Below, piece after piece: positions 1,833-48,135 of a stretch of 64,000 nt of DNA. The notes below the pieces were generated by a model. It was given only the letters and a program-made list of their open reading frames with translations. It searched no databases and had not been told where the DNA came from. This stretch comes from Cyanidium caldarium (Eukaryota > Rhodophyta > Bangiophyceae > Cyanidiales > Cyanidiaceae), in assembly GCA_026184775.1 (NCBI GenBank), contig JANCYW010000006.1, positions 310,001 to 374,000 of the forward strand. The letters are read 5' to 3'. The number at the start of each line of letters is the position of its first letter. Within the stretch, counting starts at the first letter, position 1. The translations under genes were made by a program, and so were the position numbers.

Positions 1833-4800
1833 TCAGCTTCTGGTCGAGTCGTGATCCGACGCCGCGACGTCCGCGTCCGACGAGGCCGGCGTCGTGCCGC
1901 CCACAAGCCTACCCGCCCCGCCCAGTCGCGCACGCGCTTCCCATTGCGTTGCTGTGGGGCACGCCGACTCGGTGACGCCCAACAGCGCCGAGCGCAGACT
2001 GGGACGCTTGTTCAGCTCGTCCTTGTTGTTATCATCGTCAACGCCGCTGCGTTCCGGCGTCCTCGCCTCCTGTTTCTGCGCGGCTCCCGCGCCCGGCCTA
2101 CTGCTGCTTCCCAACACCCCCGCCGACAGCGCCGCCGTGGGTGTGGTCGGCGGCGAGGCCCCTGAATCGCCCGACGGCGACGGCGCCCCACTGCGATACC
2201 GCGCCGTGCTGCGGGCCCCGCGCGCCGACCCGCCCCCGGAACTGCCAGCGCCACCGCTACTGCTGGCCGCCATCGGCCGCGACAACGCCTTCCACACCCG
2301 ATTGCGGGTGGCCTTGGCGTACGCCATGCCGCTCACCGCGGTGACCGCGCCCGCAAACGATTGTCCCACGTCCAGTGCCGTACCGCCCAACCCGGTGACG
2401 ATGCCCTTGCCGGCCGACGCCAAATGCAGCTCCCGCAGCTGCTTGCCGACGTGCTTGGCGCGCTCGCTCGCCGTGCCCCACACGTTCATCGGCGCGCCCA
2501 GCATATCCAACGATCCGACCAGCATGTGCCAGTTGCGCAGTGCCGCCCATGTGTAGTGCTGCACCACTTGCCGCTGCAGCTGTCGCATCGTGCTGAAGTG
2601 TTCGTGCAGCGCGATCGACGGCAGGCTCACCACCGCGTTGGTCACCCGCGGCACGTACGCCAGCGCGAACCGCAGCCGCTGCATCAGCGCCTCGTTGGCG
2701 CGGTGCTCCAGCGCGCCCAGTTCATGGCGATGCGGCAGCGAGGCCGGCCGCCAGGTGAACACACAATCCACATCGTCAACGGCACCGGCGTTGACGTACA
2801 CCGCCACCACGCGGTCCTCGGCGAACATACCCGCGATCGACCGCCGCGACCGACTCGAGGCACTCCCGACTCCATCCGCCGCCTCTGCATCGGGCGGCGC
2901 CGTCGTCCGCTGCAACAACACCACGTCGGTGCCCATCATCGACTGCAACTCGTCCAGCACCTGCACTGCCACGGCCGCCACCCGCCACACGATCTGCGTG
3001 TCCAGCACCAGCGACACCCGCTCGACGGCCGTCTGCAGTGACCGCACGTAAAGCAGGCGCTCGCGAGTGCACGACCCGAAGGTCAATTGGGCGAACGGAG
3101 TCGACGGGGTTGTCGGGCGCACGGCGCCCACTGAAGTCGTCGCCGAGGAGGAGGAGGAGGAGGGCGGGGGCGGAGGTTGCGGCGATGACGTCGACGACGA
3201 TACGTTGCCGCGCTTGCGCGGTGCACCCGCCAACATCACATCCACCCCGCTCTCCGGCACCCGATTGTTCACCGCCACATCCGCCACCAGCAGCGCGCAC
3301 TCCACCTCGCCGCGCACACCCACCTCTACGCCCGCCTGCAACCCCTGCAGCTGCAGCTGGAGCACGCCCCAGGCTTGCCGATCGCGCAGCAGCAGGGAGA
3401 GGCGCGGCAGGGCCACGTACAGCCGCAGCCGGCTCATGTTGATCGGCTGCAGGTAATCGAAACGTGCACGCTCCACCTCCACGGGTGTCGTCGTGGGCGA
3501 ATCGCTCGATTGCACCTCCTCCACCAACAGATACCGCTGCGGGCCGTCGGCGCCCATCCGCAGCAGCATCTCCCGCCCGGCCAGCCGTGCTCGCAGCGGT
3601 TGCATGCTGAGTTTGCGCGTGTCCACCGTAACGTGCTTGGCATCGGAGGCAGGTTCTGCATCGCCATCGACGGCGGCAGCAGCAGCGGCAACCATTGCCT
3701 CCACGGCCTGTTTGCCGGCGCTGACGTGCACGCGCGCCGACCCCAACGGCTCCGGCCAGGTGAACACACTCTGCGAGCGCGGCATCACCGCCAGCGCCAG
3801 ACTGCGCGTCGGACTGCCACTGGCCATTCGACGCACCCGCCGCAACACGTCCAGCGGCACCTCCGACAAGCCGCCCGGCGACTCGGTGTCCGAGCTGCGC
3901 GGTGATACCGCCTCTTCGACCGGCACGCCGTGCTGATGTCGTCGCTTCTGACACACCACCAACCGCACGCCCGTCCGGTTCACCACCAGTATGGTGGTGC
4001 CAGGCAGCGGCGTGCCCAGAAAACGACAAAAGATGCGCTTGCCCGACGTCTGCGCGTCGAAATACATGGAGCGATATGCACTGGCCACCTGCAGCGACGA
4101 CGATGCCGTATTGGCCGTGGAGCGGCGCGGCGGCAACATCGCCGACGTCGGCGCCAATGAGGTGGCGTCGATCAACCCCGACCAACCGGTGTTACCAAAG
4201 CGCAATCGCAACTGGCGGTGGCGGTTGCCGACGTGGAAGGTGAACGGCTGGCCGCGGCCGCGCGACGGCGGCAAAAACACGCCCACCGGTAGGCGATCCC
4301 CCGGGCATGGCGCCGTCGTCGCCGCGTCGCCTCGCTCACCCTCTATCGCTGTGTCCTCGCCGCCCTTGCGCTGCAGTTCGTAGTCCAACGCATCGATCAG
4401 CCAGATGTCTTCCTCGGTCAGATTCACCATCTCGAAGCGCAAACACAGGTGCACGGTGTGCACCAGCGGTAGCAGCGTGCGCGGTATGCCCTCAGCGCTG
4501 AGTCGATCGTCCACGCCCATCTCGGTGACCAGCTCCAACTGGTGATGCCGCCGCTCCGCCGGGATGGCGAAGCCGGGGTTGCCCTGCGGCAGTGGCGCCA
4601 GCCGCACCAGCTGACCGCCTTTGCGGCAGCGCGCCGTCGACAACACCGCATACTCCGAACGCCACATCAGCAGCGGCGCCCGTGCGGAGTTGGCAGTCGG
4701 CGTCAACGCGCCGCTCGCCCGCGTGGCCGCCGGCAACAGGTATTTGGCGGCGGTTTGGGAGGCAGATTTGGTGCTTGCGGCCGCCACCAGCGACAGCTGC

Positions 4801-7800
4801 GCACTGGAGGCCGGCGTGAGCGTGCTCGGCGTGCCGCCCGGGGACGCGGTCGTCGTCGCCTCCGCATCGCTGCCGGAGGCCATCTCTATCGCCTCGGCGC
4901 CGTCGGCCTCGTCGCTGGATGACCGGCCGCTGGCCACCGACAGCGTGTCGGGCGTCTCGCTGGCCAGTGCCTCGCCATCGCGCGGCTCCTCGCCGGACGC
5001 CTTGTCCTCGTCGTCGACGTCGTCCCCGGTTGGCCGACGGCGGCCGCCGAAGACGCGACCGATCGCTCGGGCCGCACGGCGCATCACGCCCTTGGTGGCC
5101 GAGCGCATCGACTTGGCGCCGCGATGCATCATCCACCGCTGCCGTCGATCCGCATACTCCACCTGCACATCCACCCCCCTCACCGCGTTGTACAGCAGAT
5201 ACGGTGCGTACACGTAGAGCAGCGCGCCCCGTAGCGGCACGTGCAGCCGCTTCACCCGGAAACAGCCGTCGGGGCTAATCAGCGTCTGTTTGGCGGCCAG
5301 GTGCAACGCCATGTCCACCGCGTTGCGGTCACTGCGGTCGGGCGCGAACGACACCGTGGCCAGCACCAGCCACGACTGGCCGTCGTCCAGCGATAGCGAA
5401 ACGGTGTGCGGCCGGCCGCGCACGTCAAACTCGAACAGTTCCACCCACTGACCCGATGTGAACGGGCACTCCAGCAGCAACGGCGGCGGCGATGGGGATG
5501 CTGATGGAGCCGCTGTTGCGCTGGTCGCCAGACGTACCTGCAATCGCGCGGTGCACGGCAGCGCCGACACCAGCGTCAGAGGCGGCCCGACGGTGTATTC
5601 GGTCACGAATCGCTCACCGGGCGCATACCGCACGTTCAGCACCGTGGCCGGCGTTGCGGCGGTCGCTCCGCGCGCCACCAGATACGACTTGCCGCTCTTG
5701 CCGGGGCGACTGAGCGCGGCAAAGCTGACGCACTGTTCCGCGCCGCTGCATTGCAAACGCACCCGTTTCGGGCAGAACACCGTGCCAAAGTAGGCCGAAT
5801 CTCCGGGTGCCAGATGTCCGACGGTGCCTCGCGCCACATCCCCGCACGGTAGAGGTATCCACAATTCACCGTCGCCGCTCGGCGTCGACGGCGACGGCGA
5901 TGACGGTCGCGCTGTTTTGCTGTCGCGGCCGTCCGTATCGCGGTGCGGTCGGCGTCCGAACCACGGGAACGTACGGTGTCGCGCCGCAGTCGTGGTGGTC
6001 GTGATTGGCGGGGTCGACTCCGCCGTCTTCAATGTCCTCGCGCCCGTCCCGCTGCCGTGTTGGCAGTGTGCATGCCGCAGACGATCCAACGACAGCATCG
6101 TCGTCGACGTCGACGACGGAATATCCAGGAGCCCTAGCGCGTCCAACGCGACGGTGCGGCTGGTGTTGGTCAGTTTCACCTTGCTGTACAGGTAAAAGTG
6201 GTGCCGGAAGCCGTCGCTCTGTCGCAGCCACGACAACGCCCGGCCGCGGCTGGCAGCTCGCTCTGGCGTCTTTGTCGTCGCCGCGCCGCTGAACGCGCCG
6301 GAGGGGATGCGGCGGGTGAGCGTCGGTTCGCTGGTCGCCGAGACGGCCGCGGTGCTGCTGGGCGAGCGTTCCGCCGCAGACATCGTCGTCGTCGTCGTCG
6401 TCATTTCCCTGGCGGAGTCGGTCGCGGTGGATACCGCTGCGCTGCCGGCGGCGCCCGTCGGCAGCCCCAATCGCACCACATCCTCCGCATCCACCGGAAA
6501 CGTCGGCAGCGCGCCGTACCCGCCTACCTCCATCACCACATTGGCGATCTGGTTGCGCCGCACGCCCGTCAGCGTCTGCTTGCCGGGTCGGCCGGCCACA
6601 TCCCGCCACCGCACCAGCGACGACTGCCGTTGGAGCATCGGCGGCCGCAACGCCACCACCTGGCCCGCGTGCGCCGACTGCGGTGCGCCGGCCTCGTCGT
6701 CGTAGCGCAATGCCACACAGAATTCGCTCTCGTTGTGCAGCGCGAAGGCGCCATACAGACCGCGCTTGCGCGACACCGGCAGGGCGATCTCGGCGCCCAC
6801 CGCACTGAGACGCCCCAGCTCGGCCGGCCCCACGTTCAAGTTCATGCCGCGCCCGCGACCGCCCACCTGCAAATCCGCCAACAACGTGCGGTGGCGTCCG
6901 CGGCTGGCCACGCTCACCGTCAGCGGTAACGGCTCCAGAATCGGATACCATAGACACTGCAGCACCTGGTACGTGTCGATGGCCACCTGCGCTTGCACGC
7001 TGAGGTCCACGTCGAGCTCGTCGGTGCGGCTGCGTTGTCGCATCCACGCGTCCAGCGTCACCGGCGCCGCAGTGAACGCCAACAACGGGTTCTCGGCGCG
7101 GACGGGCGGCTCGCCGATATCGGTGAGGCGCAGCATGGCGCCTTCGAGGTGGAATCGCACGCCTACCTGCGTGCGCAACCGCGACCGGGAGACGGCACGC
7201 GCTCGACGCTCGGTCATCAAGCGCAGCGCGCAGGCGCTCACCACCGACGACACCGCCTCCAACGGTTGGCGTTCGTTCTCCTCGCCGGCCGCCACCGCCT
7301 CCCACGTCGCACAGCCGCCGATCAGCCGGCCGGTCTGACAGTTGCGCAACAGCACACCAGCCGAGACGGTGGCCGGCCGGAGCACCTCCCAGAAAATGGC
7401 ACCGGAGGGAGGGGTCTGCTGAGCAGAGGGCGTCCGCATCGCCATCGAGTCGGTTGTGGTGCCCGAGTCGCCGTGCGTCAGTTGATCTGGGTGGAGTGGT
7501 GCGCTCACCAGCCGCAGTGCCGACGACGACGACGACGACGACGACGTCGTCGTCGTCGTCGCTGAGCGCCGCTCATTACCATCCGTCGTCGCCGCATCGC
7601 CCACATCGGCCACCAAGCGCCCGTTCACCGCCGCATCCTCCGCCTCCGCTTGCAACGCGAAGCGGCCAGTCTCGCGGATGTCGCGCGCGTGCAACACCCG
7701 AAAACGCACCGCCTGCTCCAGTGGGCACGGCGCCTGCATCGTTCCGTCGACGACATCGACGCCCACGAAAGCGCCACAGCTCGGCCCGCCCATATGCAGC

Positions 7801-10800
7801 AGCACGAGCGCTCCGTGCCGCGGCGTGACCATTTCGTATCGATTCTCGTCGATGGACGCGGCCGCGGTATCCTCGTGGGAGGACTCGATGCTCTCGGCGC
7901 TGGTGTCGGCCGGCAGATCCGCCTTGGACGATGGCGGCAACGACACCGTCGACGTGCTTCCGCCGGCCGCCGCCTCCTGTCTCTGCAACTCGGTCTGGGC
8001 CCGCCGGGCAAACGCCAGCAGACGGTCGCGCACCTCGGTCACCACGCCCAGCGGCAGGATCACATCGATCGGCTCGCACTCCATATCCGCCGCGATGTGT
8101 CGGCGATTCGTTGTCGCGTTCGACGGCGACACAAACACGTTGCCCACGGCAGCGAACGGCGCCAACAGCAGCCGCTCCTCCGCATCCGCGGACGCTTCAC
8201 CCACACGGCTGGAGATGCCGCCGACCGCCACATCGACCATCATCGCCTGGTTGTTCAGCACCGCCAGGTCGCACTGCGCCATCAACCGCGCCGACACACA
8301 CGGCTGGCCGTACAAATTGCCGCGGCACGTCTCGTCGGCCACATCCAGCACCAATGCTGCCTGAATGCCGCCGACCACGGCCACACTGAGGCCCAGGCGC
8401 AGCGCCAGCGGATGCTCCACGAAACGCGAGCTGCCAGCGCGTATCGCCGAACGCTTCTGCGCCAACGACGTGTCGCGCACCTGTCGAATGTACGCCAACA
8501 GATCGGGTACTGCGCCGCTCTCGGCCGCCGCCGCCGCTAACGATTTGGAGGGCGAGCGCGTGCTCATCAGACCCTGTCCACCACCAACCGCATCCACAGC
8601 CGCCAACACCGGCATCAACGTCGAGGCCTCGGTTTCAGAGGTATCCGACGTGGGCGTGGCCACCGATCCCAGCAGGATGGACTGCACCTCCCGTCCCAAC
8701 GAGGCGTACGACAACACAATGCGCGCCAGCTTGAGGATGTCCGACGCCGCCACCGAGGCGATGACGTGACCGACGCGAATGCTGAGGTTGGCGCGGGCGG
8801 ACGCCACCGCATCCAAATGACCGCCACGACCCAGCTCGGACGCCACGCCCAGCACCACCGAGTCCAACCGCACAATGTCGCGATGCCGCGACGGTCTGTC
8901 CAGTGTCGCGGTGCAGCAGCTGCCCACTTGCACGCCGCTGAATCGGATGAGCACCACACTGCGCGTATGAAAGTGCAACGACGCGTACGGATCCTCAAAG
9001 TTATCGTCGGTCGCCGCATCGCGGCCTTTGGTCACGCGGTCGTCATCATCATCACCGCCAGCGAGCGCCCGTTCGGCTTCATACGCGCGTGCCGCCCGTT
9101 CGCGGATCTCCCCAAACGCCGCGCCACTCACCAGCGCGTCGTGGTCGGTGCGCTCGCGCAGTGGCGCCAGCGTGATCGCGTCGCCGGCGTAGATGTGCAG
9201 CTCGCCCACTTCGGCCACCAGGTGTTCGCCGGCGGCCATCGCGGCGGGCGATTCAACGCGGACGACGCTGTCGGCCTCGCCTCCACCGCCCGCATAGTCC
9301 TCCAGGTGCACCTGCAGTGCGCCAAAGTGTAGCGATACCATCGTCGGCGGCGGGTTCAGCCACAGTCCCGAGTCCACCACCTCGCCCAACTGCATCTGTA
9401 CCTGATTCAACATCTCGGCGGTGTACTCCCGGCCGACCTCGGCGTACCGCAGCAGCGTCTCCGGTATCCAGAAACGCAACAGGCCGAGGATGCGTCCGCG
9501 GGTGGCGTACACCGACAGCGGCCAGAAACCCAGGTACAGCTCCAGCGGGCCGTTGACGGGCAACTGCAGCCGAAACTGCAGTTGCGAGTCGGCGGCCGAC
9601 GACTCGCTTATCGTGCGGTTCTCCACCATCACCTGCTGCTCCGCATCCACGACGCGGATCGTCTCGCCGCAGGCACTCATTTTGAGGGTGTTGTCCGGCA
9701 GCACCGCCAGGTCGAAGGCGAGGCGCTGCAACCGCGCGGCCATGACCAGAGACGTTGGCGCCGCCAGCGCTCGCAACGTCACCGCCGGCAGGCGCACGCG
9801 CAACTGCAGCAGCGCACCGGCGGTGTGTGTGGCACCGCTGGCCACCGTTGGCGCCGCTCCGAAATGGCGTGCGTACGTCGTGAAATCCGACGCGACTGTC
9901 GAGGCCACCTGACGATACAAGGCCCGCATGGCAGCGGTGGGTTCGCGGACGCGCTGATGCGACGAGGTCGCTGCATCGCCGTCGGCACCGCCCCGCGGCG
10001 GGCGTAGGCGATGTCGATGCGCGTCGATAAAGCGGGTCAGGCGCTGCACCGCTCGCCCCGAGGTCAACCCAGAGGCGACGTGCAGCAACCGCACCAACAC
10101 TCCGATCAGCGTCCGCAACACCCAGTGCACGGCCAGCATGGCCCAGCGTTGTTGACGCACCGCCATCGGCAACACCGTCGGTACCAGCAACCGCTCCAGG
10201 GCCACGACCACGTCGCCAGAATCGGTCAGCACGCGCTCGGCGTGCGCGCGCATCGTCAGCACCTCCTCCAGCGGCATCGACGCCTCCATCTGACGCAGCC
10301 GTTTCTGGGCGCGCAGGTCATCCGCGAAATGCGCCAAGATATATGTCCGAGCGTACACCCGGCGCTGCCGAATGTGCTCCAGCACCCGCTGCATAGAGCG
10401 CTGCTGTAGCGCTCGGCGGGCCACATCCCGCGCACACCGCAGCGCAAACCGCAACCGCCGCTGGGCGGGCGGCTCCCCGGTGTGGGCGTGCAACAGCGGA
10501 CGGTGTCGCGCGGCCAACTCTTGCAGCTGCGCCTCGTGGGACATGAACACCAGCGCGCCGATGAGCGTGTCGCCGCCCTTACCCAGGCCCGCCCGAAACG
10601 CCGCACTGAGCATATCCGAGTACTGCCGTTTGGATATCTGCAGCGCGATGTCTCGCAGGTGCACCTCCAGGGTGGTCTGGAACGCCGACTGGAAACCGGC
10701 GACGCCCACCGCCAGTTCTAGGGCACTCGGGCCCAGCACCGTTCCGCCGCCCTGTTGCACGCACGCCTGCAGATGCGCAAAGTCGGGCGACGGCCGCTTC

Positions 10801-11648
10801 CAGGCCGACGTGTCGTCAGCCTGACGGGTGGCATCGAACGGCTCCCAGAACAGACGCACGCCGTGCAACAGCAGCTTGCGAGCCACAATGGCCTGCACCG
10901 GGCGCGTCGGCGCCTCGTCCGCTGGGACATCCGTGGTGTTGGCTTCCCAATCGGCGGTGTGAAGCGACTCCAGCAGCACGCCGGTGCGCCACGCGTAACC
11001 TGGCTCGCCGGCCTCCGCCTCTCGACGCGACTTGGGCAACGCATCCTCCAACGCGATGACCACGTTGCGCACCCGAATATGCAGCCGATCGGTCACATAA
11101 CCGATCATGCGTTCGACATACCCCGAGCCGAAAAACGACCAGTCGCGGGTCGTGCCCCCCGGCGAGCCGCTCCAGGCGTTGGCCAGCGAGCCGATGCCCT
11201 GCCACGATGGCGGCGACGACTCCGTCGCCGACTTTACCTCTTCCTGGTCGTCGCGACGCGCTAGCGCCGCCCGCATTCGCTCCAAACGCTGCTTGTTGTC
11301 CCAGAGCAACACCGTGCGCTGGTAGCGCTTCAGGCCGCTCTCGGTCCACTTGTCCGTATCCACCTCTTGCAACGCCAACACCACCTGCAAATCCGCCACG
11401 TCAACCTTCACTTGTCCCTGCACGTTCACATCGACGCGCAAATGCCCCAAACTCGCGCTGCGCACAGAGAACGGTGCGCCCAGCTGGCGCAGCAGGTCGC
11501 GCACCCGCTCGGCATCCAGACGCACCGACCGCAGCTCCAGCGCGTTGCTCCGACCGAACGCCAGCCCCAAATTCTGTCGTTCCAGCCCGCCTTCCACAAA
11601 CTGTCCAACATACTGGGCTACCAGCGATACTACCGCGCGCTCCAACAT
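1833..11648 (-). CDS. VPS13: VPS13-family bridge-like lipid transfer protein
   Basis: An intronless gene of about 3,270 residues. I place the start at the ATG at 11648 because it begins MLERAVVSLVAQYVGQFVE, the canonical start of the chorein_N domain. The frame continues upstream without an ATG that looks better. VPS13 proteins form a long hydrophobic groove that moves phospholipids between membranes at contact sites. The chorein N-terminus (residues 1 to about 110) is clear. The middle is long and mostly beta-rich, with low-complexity Ser/Thr/Pro inserts. The C-terminus has an ATG_C-like segment with a GKGIVTGLGGTALDVGQS motif and alternating hydrophobic residues, followed by a disordered tail. 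The length matches VPS13 (3,000-4,000 residues). It diverges from a DHHC enzyme across about 360 bp. A Thr/Ser tract at 7521-7561 is encoded by a palindromic (GAC)n(GTC)n repeat. Confidence 0.9.
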   Translation of the reverse strand: MLERAVVSLVAQYVGQFVEGGLERQNLGLAFGRSNALELRSVRLDAERVRDLLRQLGAPFSVRSASLGHLRVDVNVQGQVKVDVADLQVVLALQEVDTDKWTESGLKRYQRTVLLWDNKQRLERMRAALARRDDQEEVKSATESSPPSWQGIGSLANAWSGSPGGTTRDWSFFGSGYVERMIGYVTDRLHIRVRNVVIALEDALPKSRREAEAGEPGYAWRTGVLLESLHTADWEANTTDVPADEAPTRPVQAIVARKLLLHGVRLFWEPFDATRQADDTSAWKRPSPDFAHLQACVQQGGGTVLGPSALELAVGVAGFQSAFQTTLEVHLRDIALQISKRQYSDMLSAAFRAGLGKGGDTLIGALVFMSHEAQLQELAARHRPLLHAHTGEPPAQRRLRFALRCARDVARRALQQRSMQRVLEHIRQRRVYARTYILAHFADDLRAQKRLRQMEASMPLEEVLTMRAHAERVLTDSGDVVVALERLLVPTVLPMAVRQQRWAMLAVHWVLRTLIGVLVRLLHVASGLTSGRAVQRLTRFIDAHRHRLRPPRGGADGDAATSSHQRVREPTAAMRALYRQVASTVASDFTTYARHFGAAPTVASGATHTAGALLQLRVRLPAVTLRALAAPTSLVMAARLQRLAFDLAVLPDNTLKMSACGETIRVVDAEQQVMVENRTISESSAADSQLQFRLQLPVNGPLELYLGFWPLSVYATRGRILGLLRFWIPETLLRYAEVGREYTAEMLNQVQMQLGEVVDSGLWLNPPPTMVSLHFGALQVHLEDYAGGGGEADSVVRVESPAAMAAGEHLVAEVGELHIYAGDAITLAPLRERTDHDALVSGAAFGEIRERAARAYEAERALAGGDDDDDRVTKGRDAATDDNFEDPYASLHFHTRSVVLIRFSGVQVGSCCTATLDRPSRHRDIVRLDSVVLGVASELGRGGHLDAVASARANLSIRVGHVIASVAASDILKLARIVLSYASLGREVQSILLGSVATPTSDTSETEASTLMPVLAAVDAVGGGQGLMSTRSPSKSLAAAAAESGAVPDLLAYIRQVRDTSLAQKRSAIRAGSSRFVEHPLALRLGLSVAVVGGIQAALVLDVADETCRGNLYGQPCVSARLMAQCDLAVLNNQAMMVDVAVGGISSRVGEASADAEERLLLAPFAAVGNVFVSPSNATTNRRHIAADMECEPIDVILPLGVVTEVRDRLLAFARRAQTELQRQEAAAGGSTSTVSLPPSSKADLPADTSAESIESSHEDTAAASIDENRYEMVTPRHGALVLLHMGGPSCGAFVGVDVVDGTMQAPCPLEQAVRFRVLHARDIRETGRFALQAEAEDAAVNGRLVADVGDAATTDGNERRSATTTTTSSSSSSSSALRLVSAPLHPDQLTHGDSGTTTDSMAMRTPSAQQTPPSGAIFWEVLRPATVSAGVLLRNCQTGRLIGGCATWEAVAAGEENERQPLEAVSSVVSACALRLMTERRARAVSRSRLRTQVGVRFHLEGAMLRLTDIGEPPVRAENPLLAFTAAPVTLDAWMRQRSRTDELDVDLSVQAQVAIDTYQVLQCLWYPILEPLPLTVSVASRGRHRTLLADLQVGGRGRGMNLNVGPAELGRLSAVGAEIALPVSRKRGLYGAFALHNESEFCVALRYDDEAGAPQSAHAGQVVALRPPMLQRQSSLVRWRDVAGRPGKQTLTGVRRNQIANVVMEVGGYGALPTFPVDAEDVVRLGLPTGAAGSAAVSTATDSAREMTTTTTTMSAAERSPSSTAAVSATSEPTLTRRIPSGAFSGAATTKTPERAASRGRALSWLRQSDGFRHHFYLYSKVKLTNTSRTVALDALGLLDIPSSTSTTMLSLDRLRHAHCQHGSGTGARTLKTAESTPPITTTTTAARHRTFPWFGRRPHRDTDGRDSKTARPSSPSPSTPSGDGELWIPLPCGDVARGTVGHLAPGDSAYFGTVFCPKRVRLQCSGAEQCVSFAALSRPGKSGKSYLVARGATAATPATVLNVRYAPGERFVTEYTVGPPLTLVSALPCTARLQVRLATSATAAPSASPSPPPLLLECPFTSGQWVELFEFDVRGRPHTVSLSLDDGQSWLVLATVSFAPDRSDRNAVDMALHLAAKQTLISPDGCFRVKRLHVPLRGALLYVYAPYLLYNAVRGVDVQVEYADRRQRWMMHRGAKSMRSATKGVMRRAARAIGRVFGGRRRPTGDDVDDEDKASGEEPRDGEALASETPDTLSVASGRSSSDEADGAEAIEMASGSDAEATTTASPGGTPSTLTPASSAQLSLVAAASTKSASQTAAKYLLPAATRASGALTPTANSARAPLLMWRSEYAVLSTARCRKGGQLVRLAPLPQGNPGFAIPAERRHHQLELVTEMGVDDRLSAEGIPRTLLPLVHTVHLCLRFEMVNLTEEDIWLIDALDYELQRKGGEDTAIEGERGDAATTAPCPGDRLPVGVFLPPSRGRGQPFTFHVGNRHRQLRLRFGNTGWSGLIDATSLAPTSAMLPPRRSTANTASSSLQVASAYRSMYFDAQTSGKRIFCRFLGTPLPGTTILVVNRTGVRLVVCQKRRHQHGVPVEEAVSPRSSDTESPGGLSEVPLDVLRRVRRMASGSPTRSLALAVMPRSQSVFTWPEPLGSARVHVSAGKQAVEAMVAAAAAAVDGDAEPASDAKHVTVDTRKLSMQPLRARLAGREMLLRMGADGPQRYLLVEEVQSSDSPTTTPVEVERARFDYLQPINMSRLRLYVALPRLSLLLRDRQAWGVLQLQLQGLQAGVEVGVRGEVECALLVADVAVNNRVPESGVDVMLAGAPRKRGNVSSSTSSPQPPPPPSSSSSSATTSVGAVRPTTPSTPFAQLTFGSCTRERLLYVRSLQTAVERVSLVLDTQIVWRVAAVAVQVLDELQSMMGTDVVLLQRTTAPPDAEAADGVGSASSRSRRSIAGMFAEDRVVAVYVNAGAVDDVDCVFTWRPASLPHRHELGALEHRANEALMQRLRFALAYVPRVTNAVVSLPSIALHEHFSTMRQLQRQVVQHYTWAALRNWHMLVGSLDMLGAPMNVWGTASERAKHVGKQLRELHLASAGKGIVTGLGGTALDVGQSFAGAVTAVSGMAYAKATRNRVWKALSRPMAASSSGGAGSSGGGSARGARSTARYRSGAPSPSGDSGASPPTTPTAALSAGVLGSSSRPGAGAAQKQEARTPERSGVDDDNNKDELNKRPSLRSALLGVTESACPTATQWEARARLGGAGRLVGGTTPASSDADVAASDHDSTRS
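7521..7561. repeat. Palindromic (GAC)n/(GTC)n trinucleotide tract inside VPS13
   Basis: About eight GAC units run directly into about five GTC units. The result is a perfect palindrome centred between 7545 and 7546 with arms of about 16 bp. In the VPS13 frame it encodes a run of Thr followed by a run of Ser. Confidence 0.9.
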
Positions 11649-12010
11649 TTTTGGTGATGGGCACCGAAATGGTGTACAAGAGGAATCTCGGCGCCCCAGG
11701 CCTGCGCGGCCACCCGAGAATGCTCGGCCCGATGCCTGCGCGGTCGCAGCGAACGGCGATCGCGACTGGACACCGATCGCTCGCCTGGCGATCGGTCGGT
11801 TCTCTGTGACGAAATATCGTTGTAACATATGGGTGGCGCGGAGCATGGTGCAGCGGTCCCCTCGCGGATGCAACAATGGGGGCTCGCTCGCGTGGCGTGA
11901 TGGAATGTTGCAGTGGAGCAGATAAGGGATGGTAATGACCCCACCGAGTCCATTGGTGACAATCGCAGTGGGGAGGTAGTGGGCGGAATTCCTCTACTGA
12001 TTTCACTCCC
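11649..12010. other. Shared promoter region of VPS13 and the DHHC gene
   Basis: A 362 bp spacer between divergent genes. I see no convincing gene, RNA or clear TATA element. The VPS13 frame stays open through part of it using non-ATG codons, but nothing there looks conserved. Confidence 0.5.
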
Positions 12011-13117
12011 ATGATGCGCTGGCGACGGGTGCTGCGCCCGCTCGCGCGACCCCTACGGTGGAGTCGGCGCTGGGTGGCGCGCCACTGGCACACCGCGATA
12101 ACGGTAGTGACACGAGTCGCTGGGCCGTTCTTCTGTATGCTGGCGGTGGTGCTCATCCTGCTGGTGGTGTTGGCTTACTTTTGGGACGTGTTGCCGGTTA
12201 TGCGCACCACCGGGACGTACGACGTGACTCGGTGGTCGTACCGCGGTCTGTTGGCGCTCCACCTTGGCATATCGGTGCATCTGTTGTTGCAAGTGCTGTA
12301 CAACTACGCGGCCACGGTGCTGGTGCGGCCCGGATGGCCTCCCGACGCCCAGTCGCTGCCTCTCCGCGGGGCGCCGCACGAGCCCACGCTCCTATCCGAC
12401 ACCCGCGACTCCGCTCGCAGACGTTGGTGTCGCTGGTGCAACTGCTGGAAACCGCCGCGGGCACACCACTGCTCGGTGTGTCGTCGCTGCGTGCTCAAAA
12501 TGGATCACCACTGTATTTGGATGAACACGTGTGTCGGTTACCGCAATTATCGATACTTTTTGCTGACGCTGTGGTTTCTGGTGCTGGGCTGTGTGCACAC
12601 GGCGGTTACCGCCGGCTTTCTCCTGTTTCGCTATGAGGAGCGTCGCACACTGCAAGCCAACGTCCGAGTGCTGTACTGTTTCGTGGTGACGGTGGCCGTG
12701 GGGGTGGCGCTGCTGGTGCTGCTCCTGTTTCACATGTATCTCGTGCTGCGGGGCCAGACGACCATCGAGTTTTTCGCCGATCACGATCGAACGCGGGCCG
12801 GTCGGCCATCAGCGGGCAAGGCAAGCGCCGCTGCTTCCAACATCACCGGTCAGCATCGGTGGAGTTTGGGTGTGCGGAACAACCTGCAAGCGGTGTTCGG
12901 TGCGCGACACTCGCTCGGGCGATACCTGCTGTGGCCGGTGGGCCCGGCGAACCGCATCGAGAGCGCATGGGGCGACGGGTACGCGTGGGCCGTGCGACAC
13001 GGGGTGACGGGAGATGACGGCAATGGGGGATGTGGGGCAGAGGCGTGGCCGGACGACTCGGAGGTGAGCAGCGAGGGCTATCTGTCCGAGACGGATTCCG
13101 ACCCCGGCTGGCCGTGA
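12011..13117 (+). CDS. DHHC-type protein S-palmitoyltransferase
   Basis: A 368-residue membrane enzyme that attaches palmitate to cysteines of proteins on Golgi or other endomembranes. Two hydrophobic segments (about residues 38-60 and 78-103) precede the cytosolic Cys-rich domain (about 139-190). That domain contains the zinc ligands and the intact DHHC motif (165-168, in KMDHHCIWMNTCVGYRNYRYF). Two more membrane segments follow (about 183-206 and 220-245). The TTxE motif (TTIE, 250-253) comes right after the last membrane segment, as the family requires. The C-terminal tail is acidic and Ser-rich. The start is the first ATG of the frame, a tandem Met-Met. The paralogue and its substrates cannot be told from sequence. 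It converges with the FKBP fusion gene across about 110 bp. Confidence 0.93.
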   Translation: MMRWRRVLRPLARPLRWSRRWVARHWHTAITVVTRVAGPFFCMLAVVLILLVVLAYFWDVLPVMRTTGTYDVTRWSYRGLLALHLGISVHLLLQVLYNYAATVLVRPGWPPDAQSLPLRGAPHEPTLLSDTRDSARRRWCRWCNCWKPPRAHHCSVCRRCVLKMDHHCIWMNTCVGYRNYRYFLLTLWFLVLGCVHTAVTAGFLLFRYEERRTLQANVRVLYCFVVTVAVGVALLVLLLFHMYLVLRGQTTIEFFADHDRTRAGRPSAGKASAAASNITGQHRWSLGVRNNLQAVFGARHSLGRYLLWPVGPANRIESAWGDGYAWAVRHGVTGDDGNGGCGAEAWPDDSEVSSEGYLSETDSDPGWP

Positions 13118-13227: not shown

Positions 13228-13642
13228 TCAGGCGTTGGTAGTCTCGGGCGGCACGTCGGTCTGTACCATCTCGATGTCAAAGATGAGGAGCGCGTTCTTC
13301 GGCAGCATCTGGCCGAACATGTCCGACATACCATCACACGCGTCCGGATGCACATAAACCGTGCGCGTCTCGCCCTCGGACATGTCCAGAATGGCACGAC
13401 GCAGCGCCGATGGGGCGTCGCCCACTTTCAGCGTTAGCGGCGTCACCATCTCGCCGTCGTCCTCCGCGGGGCAGGTGAAGAAGAAACGACCGTCCAGGAG
13501 GCGCCCTTGCAAGATCAAGGTCACATACGACGCATCGCCGCTGCACTTCTTGCCCGTGCCACCTCGCTGCGCACCGCGTCTGCGTGCGGCCGCCGCGCCG
13601 CGCTCACCCTGTCCGCCGTCTCTCTCGCCGTCGTCGTCGTCG

Positions 13643-13674
<32 letters not shown>

Positions 13675-14994
13675 CTCCACCTGCATCTCCTCCCACAGAA
13701 TGCGCCCCTCCTCCAGCGGTTTGAACATGTCCGGCATCGACTTGGCGGTCTCGAAAAATGCCCGCGCCTCCTCCAGGTTGGCTTCGCCCAGCACGTCGTT
13801 GGCCAGGCTCTGCAACTGGCCCATCTGGCGTTCGTACTCGGACACGTCCATGGGAAAGTCTTTGCCGGCCAGGGCATCGCGCAGGCCGCGAATCACCAGG
13901 TCGTGATCGAGACCGAACGCCGAGTTCAGCAACGCTTGGCCCAGCGCGAAACCGTACCCCTCGGACAACTTGTTGGTATCGAGGCTCTTTTCGCGCGCCA
14001 GCTGTCGCGTGCGCTCGTCGCGCAACCGAGCGCTCTCACGCGCCGCCTGTGCCGCGTCCTCGGTGATGTCCGGTTCGTCGTCAGCGTCAGCCACGCCGCC
14101 GGTCATCGGACTCCGGCGCCCAGCAGTCGCGGCGGCGGCCATCGCATCACCGCCGCCACCCTCTACTCCCGTGCGACCCTGCTGCGCGAACAGCTCGCGC
14201 GCCGCTTGCATCGACTCGGCCCACTTGTCGGGATCGTCCACCACCTCCCGGAAATGCGGGTCGGCGTCCATCCACTGACGCAGGAACGGATTATTCAGTA
14301 GCGCCTGCCGCGATTCCTCCTGCTTCTCCGGCGAACTGAAGTATTCTTGCAGTGCTGGCGAGTCCCACAAACCGCTCATCATCTGCGCCATCTGCGACAT
14401 CATCTGCATCGTGTCGGCAGAGGAGGCGCCGCCAGCACCGCCACCACCACCACCACCACCGCTCATCATCGCCTCCAGCAACCGCGTCGGGTCGGCTGCA
14501 GCACTGCCGCTGGCGCCGCGGTTGCCGCCTCGCGATCCCGCCGACGCGGCGCTCATATTCTGCAGCTGCCGCATCAGCGCGTCCACGTCGGGTGCACCGC
14601 CGCCGCCGCCGCCCACTGTCGAACGCCCACGAGCGCCGGCAGCTGCCGCCCGGGCACCGCCACCCTCTTTGCCGCCGCTGCCGGAGCGCGCCCTCGTCGC
14701 GGCGCCCGTGGCACTCGCCGTCGACACTGCACCGCCTGTCGCCGCACCGTTGCCCACGTTGCGCACCACGCTCATGGTCGCCTCAGACACATCGTCACCG
14801 ATTCCATACTGCGCCAACGACCCCGAAACATCATCCAGCACCTTGCCCTTGTACATGATGAGCTGATTCGCCGGCGGTATGCCGGCCTTGCGCTCCACAG
14901 CCGCCTGCAGCTCGGTCACCGTCGTCTGATTGCCGCGCTCGGCGGCAATTTCCACCTTTTTGCCGTTGAAACAGCGCACGTGAAGCGTCAACAT
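13228..14994 (-). CDS. Ubiquitin-like / STI1 / FKBP fusion protein (588 aa)
   Basis: Four recognisable parts in one uninterrupted frame. Residues 1-78 are a ubiquitin-like domain (MLTLHVRCFNGKKVEI, then a GIPPANQLIMYKGKVLDD core). Residues about 205-268 look like an STI1/ubiquilin repeat, with a Met-rich amphipathic lead, ALLNNPFLRQWMDADPHF and a DPDKW motif. Residues about 342-415 match the FKBP_N dimerisation region of MIP/FkpA-type isomerases (YGFALGQALLNSAFGLD, IRGLRDALAGK). After an Asp-only tract (about 440-456), residues about 486-582 are an FKBP-type domain ending MLPKNALLIFDIEMV. The FKBP pocket looks degenerate: FDSS, the pocket Trp and the AYG tyrosine are absent. The protein is probably a chaperone or a proteasome-linked adaptor rather than an active isomerase, which is inference. 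Gly/Ala-rich linkers separate the parts. I know no described protein with this order. Confidence 0.8.
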
Positions 14995-15180
14995 GATGAT
15001 GACAAGCCGGTGGTCAGCTCGATGTCTGGGAAGATCCGTTGCGGGACGGCAGCGCTTCCCTGATCAGGTCGCGCAGGTGTGGTGGGGCGTCTTGCAGGGT
15101 GAGCGGCCGAACGTCGCCGCGATGATCGGACGGCGTTCCGTTCCTCTGCGGCAGGTCGGTGGAACGGAAGCGGTTGAGAC

Positions 15181-15198: not shown

Positions 15199-15310
15199 CG
15201 CGGCGAGCACAAGCACATCGGGTTGCGCACCTCCGTGAGGGAGAAGGGCAGTGAGTCAACGCCAAAAAGAGAATCCCGGTGAAGCACTGCTGCAGCGGCC
15301 GGTTTCCGAG

Positions 15311-17860
15311 ATGGATAACTGTCACAATGTCCCGACGGAAGCGCCGGGCAACGGTTCCGAGTGGCGGGATCGGGTGCGGCACCGCCTGCAGGCTCTCGGT
15401 TTGAGCGAGCGAGCACTCCGTGCCGCCTCCAAATCGGATCGGACGCTGAAAGCCCTGGAAGAGGCGTTTGACCTGGCCTGCTTTTCGGAGCGGGACGGGC
15501 TGCCAGACGCGTCTGCTGTGTCCGACCGGGCATCGCTCCTGTACACCGCGGTGATGAAGTTGGCGCCGGCGGCGGCGCCGTATCGAGCGCAGCTGTTCGT
15601 GGCCGTCGGCGACGGGCGCGTCGACAACAACGCCAAATTGGACGCGGCGTGCGAGTATTTGACGGCGCTGGGCAAAGCCGGGACGGCCACGCCCGAGTCG
15701 TTGGACGTCGCTGCCTTCAACGACGCGTGCGGCGCTGGCGTCCATTACGACGACGAGGCGTTGCGGGCGGCTGTAGAGGCCGAGCTGCAAGCGGTAAGGT
15801 CGGAATTGCTGGAGCGGCGATACGCCTTTCCGGTGGGCGTGTTGATGGCGGCGGTCAACAAGCGTTTGCGCTTCGCCGACGGGAAGCGCGTCAAGGCCGC
15901 CATCGATCGAGGCCTTGAACAGGTGCTGGGGCCGCGGCAGCCCGCGGATGACCAGCCGGCCAAAGGCGCCAGCAACAGCAATAGCAGCACCGTCAAGAAG
16001 ACGCGCGATGCGCCCCAGAAACTGCCGCGACCGCAACCGGTGACGGACGCCGCCCGCGAGGAGGACGAGCGTCTGGCGCACGACCCGCTGTCGGCGCTGC
16101 CGGAGACGTTTGAGGCGCGTGACCTGGCCTCCATGCGAAACACGCCCGAACTGCTCGAAGCGCAGCGCCGCCATTCGGGCGGGTGCGCAGTGATCACCCG
16201 CTTCCCGCCCGAGCCCAACGCGCACCTGCACTGCGGGCACACCAAGGCGATGCTGCTGGACTTTGGGTACGCCATGCGCCACGGCGGCCGCTGCATTCTG
16301 CGCTTCGACGACACGAACCCCGAAGCCGAGGACATCGAGTACATTCGCTCGATCATCGAGGCGGTGCACTGGATGGGATACCGCCCGCACGCCATCACCC
16401 ACTCCTCGGACTATTTCGACCAGCTGTACGAGCTGGCGTTGGAGCTGATTCGCCGCGGCAAGGCGTACGTGTGCCACCAGAGCGCCGACCAGATGGCCGC
16501 CTACCGCGAGAGCAAACGCCATTCGCCGTGGCGCGACCGGCCCGTGGAGGAGAATTTGCACCTGTTCAACCGGATGCGCCAGGGGGTGTTCGAGGAGGGC
16601 GCGGCCACATTGCGCATGAAGATCGACATGCAGCACCCGAACCCGTCTATGCGCGACCCGGTCGCCTATCGCATCAAGTACGTGCCGCACCCGCACGTGG
16701 GCGACCGCTGGTGCATCTACCCATCGTACGACTTTACGCACTGTCTGGTGGACTCGCTGGAGTGGGTCACGCACTCGCTGTGCACGCTGGAGTTTGAGGT
16801 CCGCCGCGACTCGTATTACTGGCTGTTGGAGGCGCTCGACATGTATCGCCCGTATGTGTTCGAGTTTAGTCGGCTGAACTTGTCGCACACGGTGTTGAGC
16901 AAACGGCGTCTGACGCAGATCGTGGAACGCGGTCTGGTGCGCGGCTGGGACGACCCGCGCATGCCCACGCTGGTGGGTATGCGCCGGCGCGGATATCGCC
17001 CGCAGGCGATCAACCACTTCGTGGCCAGCGTGGGGTTTTCGCGCGCGGAGAACAACGTCAGCGTCCAAAAGTTGGAGGCGTGCGTGCGCCGTTACATGGA
17101 CGAGCACGCGCCGCGGCGCATGGTGGTGCTGGATCCGTTGCGAGTGGTGATCGAGAACTGGGACGCGTTGCTGCCGGCGGATGACACCGCCGGGCTGGCG
17201 CTGCAGGTGCCCAACCACCCGAAGCGGCCGGAGATGGGCACCTACGCGCTGCGCCTCACCCGCGTCATCTACGTGGATCGGTCGGATTTCCGCCTGCAGG
17301 ATGAGAAGGACTATTACGGGCTGGCGCCTGGTAAGGGCGTGCTGTTGCGACACAGCGGACAGGCCATCCGCGTGGTCGGCTACGAACCGCCCGATGCGGC
17401 GGATGTGGCTCGGGTGCATACCTTGCGCGCGCAACTGGTGTTGCCGACGTCACCCTCAGCACCGGGGGCGAATGCCCGCCCGCCCAAATTCAAGGGCGTG
17501 CTGCACTGGACCAGTGCGGCCAGCGCGGTATGCGAGTGCCGCCTCTACTCGCACATGTTCCGACACGAGAACCCGCTCGAGGCGATAGAGGATGTCAACG
17601 GCGAAGCCGCGGCGCCGAGCGACTGGCTCCACGACTTTGATCCGCACAGCGAGGTGGTGCTGTCGCAAGCGCGATGCGAACCGTCGCCGACCGATTGGCA
17701 AGCGGGCAACATCTTCCAATTTGAGCGGGTGGGCTTTTTCTGTGTCGACCCCGACAGCCGACCACTGCGCCCAGCCGCTACCGGCGGCGACACCGCGACG
17801 TGGCACTGGGTCTTCAACCGCACCGTGACCCTCCGGGAATCGTATAAAAAGTTCGCCTGA
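15311..17860 (+). CDS. QARS1: Glutaminyl-tRNA synthetase, eukaryotic type
   Basis: Charges tRNA-Gln with glutamine. The first ATG (15311) gives 849 residues; the frame extends upstream only from a GTG. The N-terminal 250 residues are the two-part GlnRS-specific appended domain, which is related to GatB/YqeY tails. After a Ser/Lys-rich linker comes the class I catalytic core with TRFPPEPNAHLHCGHTKAM (the HIGH motif as HLHCGH) and FDDTNPE. The KMSKS region reads VLSKR in NLSHTVLSKRRL. The C-terminal beta-barrels for anticodon binding follow (DFRLQDEKDYYGL and a final WVFNRTVTLRESYKK). Length and motif order are those of eukaryotic GlnRS. An 806-residue open frame on the opposite strand is a by-product of codon bias. 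Confidence 0.97.
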   Translation: MDNCHNVPTEAPGNGSEWRDRVRHRLQALGLSERALRAASKSDRTLKALEEAFDLACFSERDGLPDASAVSDRASLLYTAVMKLAPAAAPYRAQLFVAVGDGRVDNNAKLDAACEYLTALGKAGTATPESLDVAAFNDACGAGVHYDDEALRAAVEAELQAVRSELLERRYAFPVGVLMAAVNKRLRFADGKRVKAAIDRGLEQVLGPRQPADDQPAKGASNSNSSTVKKTRDAPQKLPRPQPVTDAAREEDERLAHDPLSALPETFEARDLASMRNTPELLEAQRRHSGGCAVITRFPPEPNAHLHCGHTKAMLLDFGYAMRHGGRCILRFDDTNPEAEDIEYIRSIIEAVHWMGYRPHAITHSSDYFDQLYELALELIRRGKAYVCHQSADQMAAYRESKRHSPWRDRPVEENLHLFNRMRQGVFEEGAATLRMKIDMQHPNPSMRDPVAYRIKYVPHPHVGDRWCIYPSYDFTHCLVDSLEWVTHSLCTLEFEVRRDSYYWLLEALDMYRPYVFEFSRLNLSHTVLSKRRLTQIVERGLVRGWDDPRMPTLVGMRRRGYRPQAINHFVASVGFSRAENNVSVQKLEACVRRYMDEHAPRRMVVLDPLRVVIENWDALLPADDTAGLALQVPNHPKRPEMGTYALRLTRVIYVDRSDFRLQDEKDYYGLAPGKGVLLRHSGQAIRVVGYEPPDAADVARVHTLRAQLVLPTSPSAPGANARPPKFKGVLHWTSAASAVCECRLYSHMFRHENPLEAIEDVNGEAAAPSDWLHDFDPHSEVVLSQARCEPSPTDWQAGNIFQFERVGFFCVDPDSRPLRPAATGGDTATWHWVFNRTVTLRESYKKFA

Positions 17861-21345: not shown

Positions 21346-22266
21346 TCAATCCAGATAGAGCAGCGTGACCACCTTGTTGAGCGCTTTGGCCTCACGCGCC
21401 GCCTCCAACACCACGTCGCTGTCGTGAAAGGCAAACGTGATAAAGCGGTCCGCGCGACTGATGATATCCGAGTTGCAGAGGCGGCTGGCCACGTCCAGCG
21501 GCAGCTCGTCGTTTTGTTTCATCTCGATGATCTGCGTCACCTTGCTGAGCTGCTCCTGCACCTCCAGCGGCTGTCGCTCCATACTCTGCGGCAACACCAC
21601 CGTGAGCAGTTCGGGCTTTTCGGCACGCAGCGCCCCGCGAATCACCGCCATGTTGCTGCCGCCGCCGCCCGAGGTGATGACGTGATTCCCGATGAGCACG
21701 TTGGCGAACGTGAGCAGTTCGACAATTTGCTGATGCAGATACGAGCAGTGCCGCGTGCCGATAATGGCCACATTGCGCGGAGCGTCGCTCTGGATGGCCG
21801 CCAGCTCTTGGAGCACGGTGTCGAAAGAGCGCTCCACCTCGCGAGCGATGGCGCCCGCAGTAGCCGGTGGTGGTGTCGCGGTCGCCGACGGCGGCGGCGG
21901 CGTTGTCCCCGATCCGCCGATACCACCCATGCGCACCATTCGGGCACCACCGGTTGCTGCTGTTCTGACCCGGGAGCGGACGCGGCCGATGCATCGCCCA
22001 GTCGTTCGGGTCACGCTGGACTCGACACCGGCGGGCAGTTTCCTAGCCGAGAACAGCCGATCATTCCCACCATGACCTTCGTCGCCCTGCCGCTGACACG
22101 CCAAGATGGCGCGTGCGGTCCGCGAGGCGCCATCCCGCCACGCCCGCGCACCGAGCACCGCCACGAAGGCGCTCGACCAACCGGCGCTTTCGGCTCGATT
22201 CACCCGCGGCGATTCACCGCGAGCCGCCATGAAGAGTGATGAGCACCGCGTCGCCCCCGACGCCAT
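21346..22266 (-). CDS. Plastid LOG/DprA-like Rossmann protein of unknown function
   Basis: The C-terminal about 170 residues match a family conserved in cyanobacteria and plastid-bearing eukaryotes. It is often labelled 'DNA recombination-mediator protein A' because of its DprA/LOG-like Rossmann fold. Recognisable parts are RNVAIIGTRHCSYLHQQIVE, the nucleotide-loop region ITSGGGGSNMAVIRGAL, LLTVVLPQSMERQPLEVQEQ, and the ending FAFHDSDVVLEAA...KVVTLLYLD. Cyanobacterial members have SGATGTNxAVIRG at the loop. The N-terminal region from the ATG at 22266 (or 22230) is rich in Ser, Ala and Arg and poor in acidic residues, like a plastid transit peptide. The frame remains open to 22458. No molecular function is established. 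The 'DprA' label should not be read as proof of a recombination role. Confidence 0.72.
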   Translation of the reverse strand: MASGATRCSSLFMAARGESPRVNRAESAGWSSAFVAVLGARAWRDGASRTARAILACQRQGDEGHGGNDRLFSARKLPAGVESSVTRTTGRCIGRVRSRVRTAATGGARMVRMGGIGGSGTTPPPPSATATPPPATAGAIAREVERSFDTVLQELAAIQSDAPRNVAIIGTRHCSYLHQQIVELLTFANVLIGNHVITSGGGGSNMAVIRGALRAEKPELLTVVLPQSMERQPLEVQEQLSKVTQIIEMKQNDELPLDVASRLCNSDIISRADRFITFAFHDSDVVLEAAREAKALNKVVTLLYLD

Positions 22267-22627
22267 CCACCACCTCGACCGCTGCCCCGTCCGCGTCTGG
22301 ATCACCGTGGCGGCAGGCGCGTCCGATGGCCGCCGTGCAAAGGGGAACGGTGCGCACGGCCTGGCGCGCCATGCTGCGGGCGACCGGAGCACCGGGTGAA
22401 GGGAAACGAAATCAGGGACGGTCGTCGAGGGAAATCGTCGATCGGCAACGAAATCCATGCGTCACCCGCATCGAGTCCCTTAAAGTGGGCGCGGCGCGGC
22501 CCGGCGCCGTCCGGCGCCCTCACACACACACACATACACCGTTCGCCCTCGTCCCCGGTCGTTGACGCTGTGGGGGACCATCTCGTGGCGCCGTCTGCCA
22601 TCCCGACACACTTTTGCATTCTCCAAG
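22267..22627. other. Divergent promoter of the LOG-like gene and RPL12
   Basis: About 360 bp. It contains a (CA)n tract at 22521-22534, about 100 bp before the RPL12 ATG, and GC-rich inverted words around 22490-22520. No gene or RNA was recognised. If the LOG-like gene starts further upstream, part of this region is coding. Confidence 0.5.
22521..22534. repeat. (CA)n tract upstream of RPL12
   Basis: Seven CA units, followed by TACACC, in the 5' flank of RPL12. Confidence 0.85.
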
Positions 22628-47748: not shown

Positions 47749-48135
47749 GCAGCACTCGGAACGGGAGACGAAGCGGGCGGTCGTCACCTGTCCTCGCGGT
47801 GGGGGACGGTGTGCCGAGTGCCTTCGAGACCGCGCTGACCCGTCTCTCCCCGAGACACGCCATGAACTCGTCCCGACAGACACAAAGCACGCCATTTTCT
47901 CATTCACTAGCGGTACGTCTGTGTTAGGCGCACACTCCCTATTCAATCCGCACCGTTCCGTTCACCCCGTTCGGCCCGAGGCGCGTCGACCGGTGCGTCT
48001 CCCGCTCCGCGCAGCTCCAGACATCCCCCGACGCCCTCTACCGGTCGCATGCCAATCACACTCCCGCCTGCTCACACCCTACCGCCCCTTCACGCCCTCC
48101 ACGTTCTCACCACGCTTTCGTGTCCGTGTCTCGGT
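47749..48135. other. Spacer between arsS and PI4K-beta
   Basis: 387 bp between two minus-strand genes. Most of it continues the arsS frame from non-conserved codons. Pyrimidine-rich stretches occur at 48040-48115. No RNA gene or repeat was recognised. Confidence 0.45.

Follow-up and report, generated by a model that had tools for sequence, protein, structure and literature searches.

The bacterial prolyl isomerases MIP and FkpA form dimers; the co-chaperone BAG1 carries a BAG domain and no FKBP domain, and FKBP8 (FKBP38), an atypical FKBP with a link to the proteasome, contains TPRs as well as a membrane anchor and lacks UBL, STI1, and FKBP_N domains. Ubiquilins are described by a ubiquitin-like domain (UBL), a UBA domain, and a variable number of STI1 repeats (PMC4230246, available text). 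Their UBL docks on the proteasome, STI1 binds clients, and UBA binds ubiquitin, while self-association of STI1 drives the formation of dimers and condensates (available text of PMC13083928 and PMC13083955). Here we describe a gene from the red alga Cyanidium caldarium that joins these two worlds, located in a stretch of 64,000 nucleotides (contig JANCYW010000006.1, positions 310,001 to 374,000; hereafter the window, to which all coordinates refer). A single uninterrupted open reading frame (ORF) of 588 amino acids (aa) plus TGA runs on the minus strand from an ATG at 14994 to a TGA ending at 13228, and its product combines a UBL, an STI1-like block, and an FKBP_N-FKBP_C unit. The gene is real, apparently intact, and encodes an unusual domain combination.

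The protein resembles ubiquilin and Dsk2 in its N-terminal UBL, its flexible linker with short predicted helices, and its probable STI1 domain, but the C-terminal UBA is absent, one STI1 was detected, and an FKBP_N-FKBP_C unit stands instead. With the MIP, FkpA, and FklB isomerases it shares a collinear dimerisation arm, a long helix, and an FKBP fold; unlike them, it has a UBL at the very N-terminus, an Asp-tract insert, and a pocket in which the Trp and both Tyr are lost. Ddi2, described as a shuttling factor in the available part of PMC9062259, is likewise a UBL protein without UBA, but has a retroviral-protease-like domain in contrast to the STI1 and FKBP parts seen here. BAG1 is comparable as a degradation-tied co-chaperone with a UBL (the UBL according to the accessible part of PMC3820307). 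The novelty lies in the domain architecture; the function we infer.

Domain order and reading frame

A Pfam search of the whole protein yielded, in this order, a ubiquitin-like domain, a ubiquilin STI1, FKBP_N, and FKBP_C. The UBL was matched by PF00240 at aa 4-68 with 36.8 bits (cut-off 25.4; E-value 3.4e-9 in the whole protein and 1.3e-10 as a piece alone), the arm by FKBP_N (PF01346) at aa 341-422 with 27.5 bits (cut-off 22; 5.8e-6 and 4.5e-6, respectively), and the C-terminal domain by FKBP_C (PF00254) at aa 488-577 with 32.1 bits (cut-off 21.1; 1.5e-7 and 1.9e-8). The ubiquilin STI1 model PF23195 (UBQLN1; cut-off 27.0) matched aa 205-268 with 21.1 bits (2.5e-4) in the whole protein, rising to 24.8 bits in the piece aa 81-290 and to 27.1 bits (3.4e-6) in aa 190-290; none of nine shuffles of the latter piece matched UBQLN1 in Pfam. 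No UBA family appeared in the whole protein at E-values up to 1, and the match to FKBP_C extends to aa 577 of the 588 residues. NCBIfam gave six matches, all far below their own cut-offs, the top one being Rad23 on the UBL (8.2e-5).

The original prediction, made from the letters alone, had placed a UBL at aa 1-78, an STI1 block at about 205-268, an FKBP_N arm at about 342-415, an Asp-only tract, and an FKBP fold at about 486-582 in one uninterrupted frame, whose strand it did not name, and had noted that the FKBP part takes the place of UBA. All of these were recovered: UBL, FKBP_N, and FKBP_C lie above the Pfam cut-offs, the Asp tract comprises 15 residues (aa 441-455), and the STI1 match falls on the predicted residues with a borderline score. 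The features are collected in Table 1.

Table 1. Features of the UBL-STI1-FKBP gene of C. caldarium and their positions in the window
Feature	Position	Strand	Basis or remark
Whole gene	13228..14994	-	588 aa + TGA, apparently intronless
In-frame stop TGA	15064..15066	-	upstream of the ATG (see text)
UBL domain, aa 1-78	14761..14994	-	Pfam match aa 4-68; ubiquitin-fold model matches
Gly/Ala/Ser-rich linker, aa 79-189	14428..14760	-	sequence; short low-confidence helices at aa 137-150 and 169-177 (model)
STI1/ubiquilin-like block, aa 190-278	14161..14427	-	six predicted helices; Pfam match aa 205-268
FKBP_N (MIP-type dimerisation arm), aa 341-422	13729..13974	-	Pfam; long predicted helix aa 384-418
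15-Asp tract, aa 441-455	13630..13674	-	between the first strands and the remainder of the FKBP fold
FKBP_C fold with degenerate pocket, aa 488-577	13264..13533	-	Pfam, alignment, model

Because an in-frame TGA lies 72 nucleotides upstream of the ATG and no ATG, GTG, TTG, or CTG codon occurs in between, the UBL forms the N-terminus of the protein; the plus-strand reading of the same positions is interrupted by stops. For a coding score, a codon model was trained on nine coding stretches from the neighbourhood, each of them in frame, and applied to overlapping windows of 60 codons in all six frames. In 13 of the 14 windows the frame of the gene scored positive and ahead of the other five (0.11 to 0.74 bits per codon); the sole non-positive window (-0.06, aa 81-140) lies within the Gly/Ala linker. 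Scores were also weak for aa 121-180 (0.11) and aa 161-220 (0.14), and continuity around the linker therefore rests mainly on the open frame. The two windows at the junction of STI1 and FKBP_N, aa 241-300 and aa 281-340, scored 0.26 bits per codon each.

In the UBL, the Leu8/Ile44/Val70 patch of ubiquitin is replaced by F9/M47/V77, still hydrophobic, as read from the alignment of the PDB search, and Gly-Gly is absent at the aligned end, where ubiquitin ends. The missing Gly-Gly fits an integral docking UBL and not a conjugated modifier. PDB E-values of the whole protein and of the UBL piece were not used, since their top rows are ubiquitin polymers in which repeats are summed.

The STI1-like block was modelled with AlphaFold2 from the single sequence of aa 1-290 (the N-half). 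Six helices were predicted across aa 192-278, the first and the last with low confidence; the ten-residue blocks of aa 221-270 had a mean predicted local distance difference test score (pLDDT) of 81, 75, 78, 86, and 70, and eight Met residues lie in aa 190-275. In its crystal structure, the Dsk2 STI1 consists of six helices with a groove rich in Met, and two of the domains stack around transmembrane segments (PMC13083928, available text); we count the equal number of helices in favour of STI1 identity. We think that the block aa 190-278 is an STI1. In UBQLN2 and Dsk2, placeholder or transient helices bind STI1 (PMC13083928 and PMC13083955, as far as available); as an idea only, the linker helices at aa 137-150 and 169-177 might act as internal placeholders of this kind.

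The MIP/FkpA-type C-terminal half

In a phmmer search of the PDB with aa 339-588, wheat FKBP73 ranked first (3.8e-11 with its three FKBP domains added together), and bacterial FKBP_N-FKBP_C proteins were matched too, for example 7dek (5.1e-5), with both domains in order, each weak alone. Bacterial relatives were then collected: at least 29 FKBP loci were confirmed from 591 pattern matches, all 29 bacterial by title. Fifteen of these, chosen by eye from their N-terminal sequence, were aligned with the query (alignment A2; 20-26% identity; the N-termini of L003 and L012 trimmed), and fourteen were left out of A2 and of the profile made from it (L005, L007, L008, L009, L013, L014, L016, L017, L019, L020, L022, L023, L024, and L029). 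Both FKBP_N and FKBP_C were found by Pfam in 16 of 16 rows of A2, and by phmmer alone the arm of the query matches only 7 of the 15 bacterial rows at a domain E-value below 0.01.

A profile of the 15 bacterial proteins, from which the query was excluded, matched the C-half with 57.6 bits (3e-19 in a search of four targets), split into two pieces; once aa 441-484 were removed, the alignment became one piece covering positions 23-221 of 224, which indicates a single MIP unit into which the Asp tract and its flank are inserted. The reversed protein, used as a control, was not reported by the same profile. An AlphaFold2 monomer model of the C-half based on A2 (mean pLDDT 77.8, predicted template modelling score (pTM) 0.67) has helices at model residues 10-26, 34-45, and 54-88, followed by the FKBP sheet; residues 126-143 have a pLDDT below 50. 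In Foldseek, the ten best PDB matches of this model are structures of MIP from Legionella, FkpA from E. coli (one truncated), and FkbA from Pseudomonas, which contain an arm and an FKBP domain (E-values of 7.3e-12 to 1.2e-9, 18-20% identity). On profile and model together, the C-half is a single collinear unit of the MIP/FkpA type that carries an Asp-tract insert.

Most pocket residues are changed in the A2 columns, which we take to be the FKBP12 pocket positions. The bacterial Tyr (15/15), Trp (14/15), and second Tyr (14/15) correspond to L495, L531, and D554 in the query; Phe (14/15) to L522, Val (13/15) to A527, and two Ile (15/15 each) to P528 and L564; two Phe (15/15 each) are kept as F505 and F572. 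The original prediction had stated that the pocket lacks the usual Asp, Trp, and Tyr. The loss of the Trp and of both Tyr stands, and the Asp (15/15 in bacteria) is ambiguous: it is E511 after a five-residue insert in A2 and in the profile alignment, and F506 if aligned without a gap. Because most of the residues of the isomerase pocket are changed, the FKBP domain probably has little or no isomerase activity, and the proposal of prolyl-rich clients becomes less likely.

Relatives and genome setting

Relatives were sought in collections of viral contigs, genome contigs, and plasmids, none of them meant for eukaryotic genomes, so that absence there is uninformative on red algae. In viral contigs, no locus was confirmed for the whole protein, the STI1 piece, or the UBL piece (3, 3, and 15 pattern matches, respectively). 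With A2 as query, one of 80 was confirmed (L032), matching the FKBP part only; this FKBP-domain match lies at positions 2501-2746 of an IMG/VR contig and has 30% identity. A tblastn search of plasmids with the C-half gave no match at E-values up to 0.01. UBQLN1 gave no match in the one genome searched, that of L015, a result that is uninformative because 14 control genomes also lacked a match.

A UBL-STI1-FKBP protein was not found among the listed titles and openings of abstracts of the open-licence literature, in agreement with the original prediction, which knew of no described protein with this order; InterPro or UniProt may already contain the order without comment. The words FKBP, red alga, and Rhodophyta are absent from a study of the ubiquilin family (PMC4230246), and the available portions of papers on the BAG1 UBL (PMC3820307) and the SIN1 CRIM domain (PMC5745459) do not bear on this order. 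Candidates for bacterial transfer into the Cyanidiales include the prolyl isomerase orthogroup OG0001938 (Rossoni 2019, PMC6629376), which one passage of that paper gives as common to all Cyanidiales and another as specific to Galdieria, the Cyanidioschyzon genes being nested within eukaryotes. A link to this protein could not be made, and we claim no origin for the MIP half.

The gene is flanked by a convergent DHHC palmitoyltransferase gene (12011-13117) and a divergent glutaminyl-tRNA synthetase gene (15251-17860). Elsewhere in the window, a 280-bp spliceosomal-type intron (44757-45036, plus strand; GTAAGT ... ACTAAC ... CAG) interrupts a chaperonin gene that we take, by eye, to be CCT-type, and joining of the exons gives a continuous protein sequence. 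Across both strands, the window contains a single GTAAGT, against about 5.3 expected from dinucleotides, and it is the one in the chaperonin intron. A motif scan of the UBL-STI1-FKBP gene found neither GTAAGT nor ACTAAC, which suggests that it is intronless, in a window with one intron found and for a gene that is short. The GC content of the window (0.63-0.69 in 2-kb steps) and the intron style agree with the values given for C. caldarium (65.7% GC, 8.73-8.79 Mb, and 44-46 introns within ORFs), and GC is 37.6% in Galdieria partita and 54.6-55.0% in Cyanidiococcus and Cyanidioschyzon (PMC13353863, Table 1). Scans of the window for tRNAs, and with Rfam at gathering thresholds, gave no matches.

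Further ORFs of the window include an open frame of 3347 codons (1833-11876, minus strand), which presumably encodes a VPS13-type lipid-transfer protein, judged by eye, and a radical SAM + DUF3641 protein (46672-47946, minus strand), of a family linked to arsenosugar synthesis that would suit a hot-spring alga. Two others lack a Pfam match at 1e-5: a 370-aa ORF (21346-22458, minus strand), whose C-terminal part we take by eye to be DprA/Rossmann-like, and an ORF at the window edge (11-1735, plus strand).

Proposed function and alternatives

As a tentative reading, to which we give somewhat less than an even chance, the protein may be a chimeric proteostasis factor, in which a ubiquilin/Dsk2-type front is joined in frame to a MIP/FkpA-type back instead of UBA, and which would be dimeric, client-holding, and proteasome-docking; these three properties are proposed by analogy. 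The FKBP_N arms would pair two copies into a V-shaped dimer. Hydrophobic or unfolded segments would be held by the STI1 grooves, now paired, and by the cleft that the two FKBP domains leave between them, and the UBL would dock the loaded dimer on the proteasome. The best reading of the FKBP part is that it may act as a holdase rather than as an isomerase. Dimerisation of UBQLN2 depends on its STI1-II (PMC13083928, available text), and since one STI1 was detected here together with a bacterial dimer arm, the arm may do this dimerising job. It is possible, if doubtful, that a red-algal lineage swapped the ubiquitin-binding end of ubiquilin for a bacterial-type dimeric FKBP clamp, giving an obligate dimer that delivers clients to the proteasome by chaperone recognition and not through a ubiquitin-binding UBA.

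Several points weigh against this reading. STI1 is the weakest of the four domain calls, falling short of the Pfam cut-off in the whole protein and barely passing it when alone, and a sequence search of the PDB with aa 190-290 gave four weak matches and no ubiquilin chain. The N-half model is weak (mean pLDDT 52, pTM 0.30; first STI1 helix about 46-51). In Foldseek it recovered ubiquitins for the UBL (top E-value 3.1e-3, template modelling score (TM) by target 0.66), had no match at 1e-3 or below, and showed no STI1 structure among the best 50 of 503 matches. Of the four folds that the original prediction expected from models, the ubiquitin fold, the MIP arm, and the FKBP fold appeared, and STI1 only as six helices in a weak model. 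In the C-half, the whole-length fit to the ten best matches is loose (root-mean-square deviation 5.0-7.2 Å, TM by query 0.47-0.55), which a different angle between the two domains of the model would lead one to expect, and a MIP-like outcome was partly expected because the model was built on MIP sequences. Without UBA, ubiquitinated clients would need another route of recognition. The proposed steps of the mechanism are each borrowed from a domain family.

A rather unlikely alternative is that the protein acts in the cytosol as a holdase for precursors of membranes or organelles, with shuttling to degradation not its main role. Transmembrane segments would be kept soluble by the groove of STI1 and the cleft of the FKBP part, and the UBL would bind another partner, as in BAG6, SGTA-linked, or FKBP8-like factors. 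The missing UBA speaks for it, as does the crystallisation of the Dsk2 STI1 with a transmembrane helix (PMC13083928, available text), but the hydrophobic Ile44-type patch of the UBL fits proteasome docking, without proving it. That the protein has kept its prolyl isomerase activity and is recruited to the proteasome or to a chaperone, where it would assist the unfolding of proline-rich clients, seems improbable: the FKBP fold is intact in the model and F505 and F572 are retained, but the Tyr, Phe, Trp, and Tyr conserved in 14-15 of 15 bacterial rows are L495, L522, L531, and D554.

We give equally little weight to a decaying ubiquilin/FKBP paralogue with little function, which the degenerate pocket, the long Gly/Ala linker, and the Asp tract would suit, but which agrees poorly with the open frame and the coding bias in 13 of 14 windows in a seemingly very compact genome. 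A fusion of two genes by assembly error, or by an unusual deletion in this isolate, is very unlikely. One genome is at hand and no relative with the same order was obtained, but such a joining must delete a stop and preserve the frame, and neither a stop nor a frame break is seen, the codon score across the STI1-FKBP_N junction being 0.26 bits per codon. With a single sequence from a single genome, and with Ddi2 as a precedent for a shuttle without UBA (PMC9062259, available part), the earlier suggestion of a new class of shuttle factor is overstated.

Our findings on this putative chimeric proteostasis factor point to a novel arrangement of domains in a chaperone, which may pass proteins on to the proteasome. 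Transformation constructs have been described for C. caldarium (PMC13353863, available text), so the protein could be tested in the alga. A natural UBL and STI1 with a ready-made FKBP dimer unit in place of UBA would separate docking, client binding, and dimerisation from ubiquitin binding in one molecule, and would show what STI1 and dimerisation can do without the latter.
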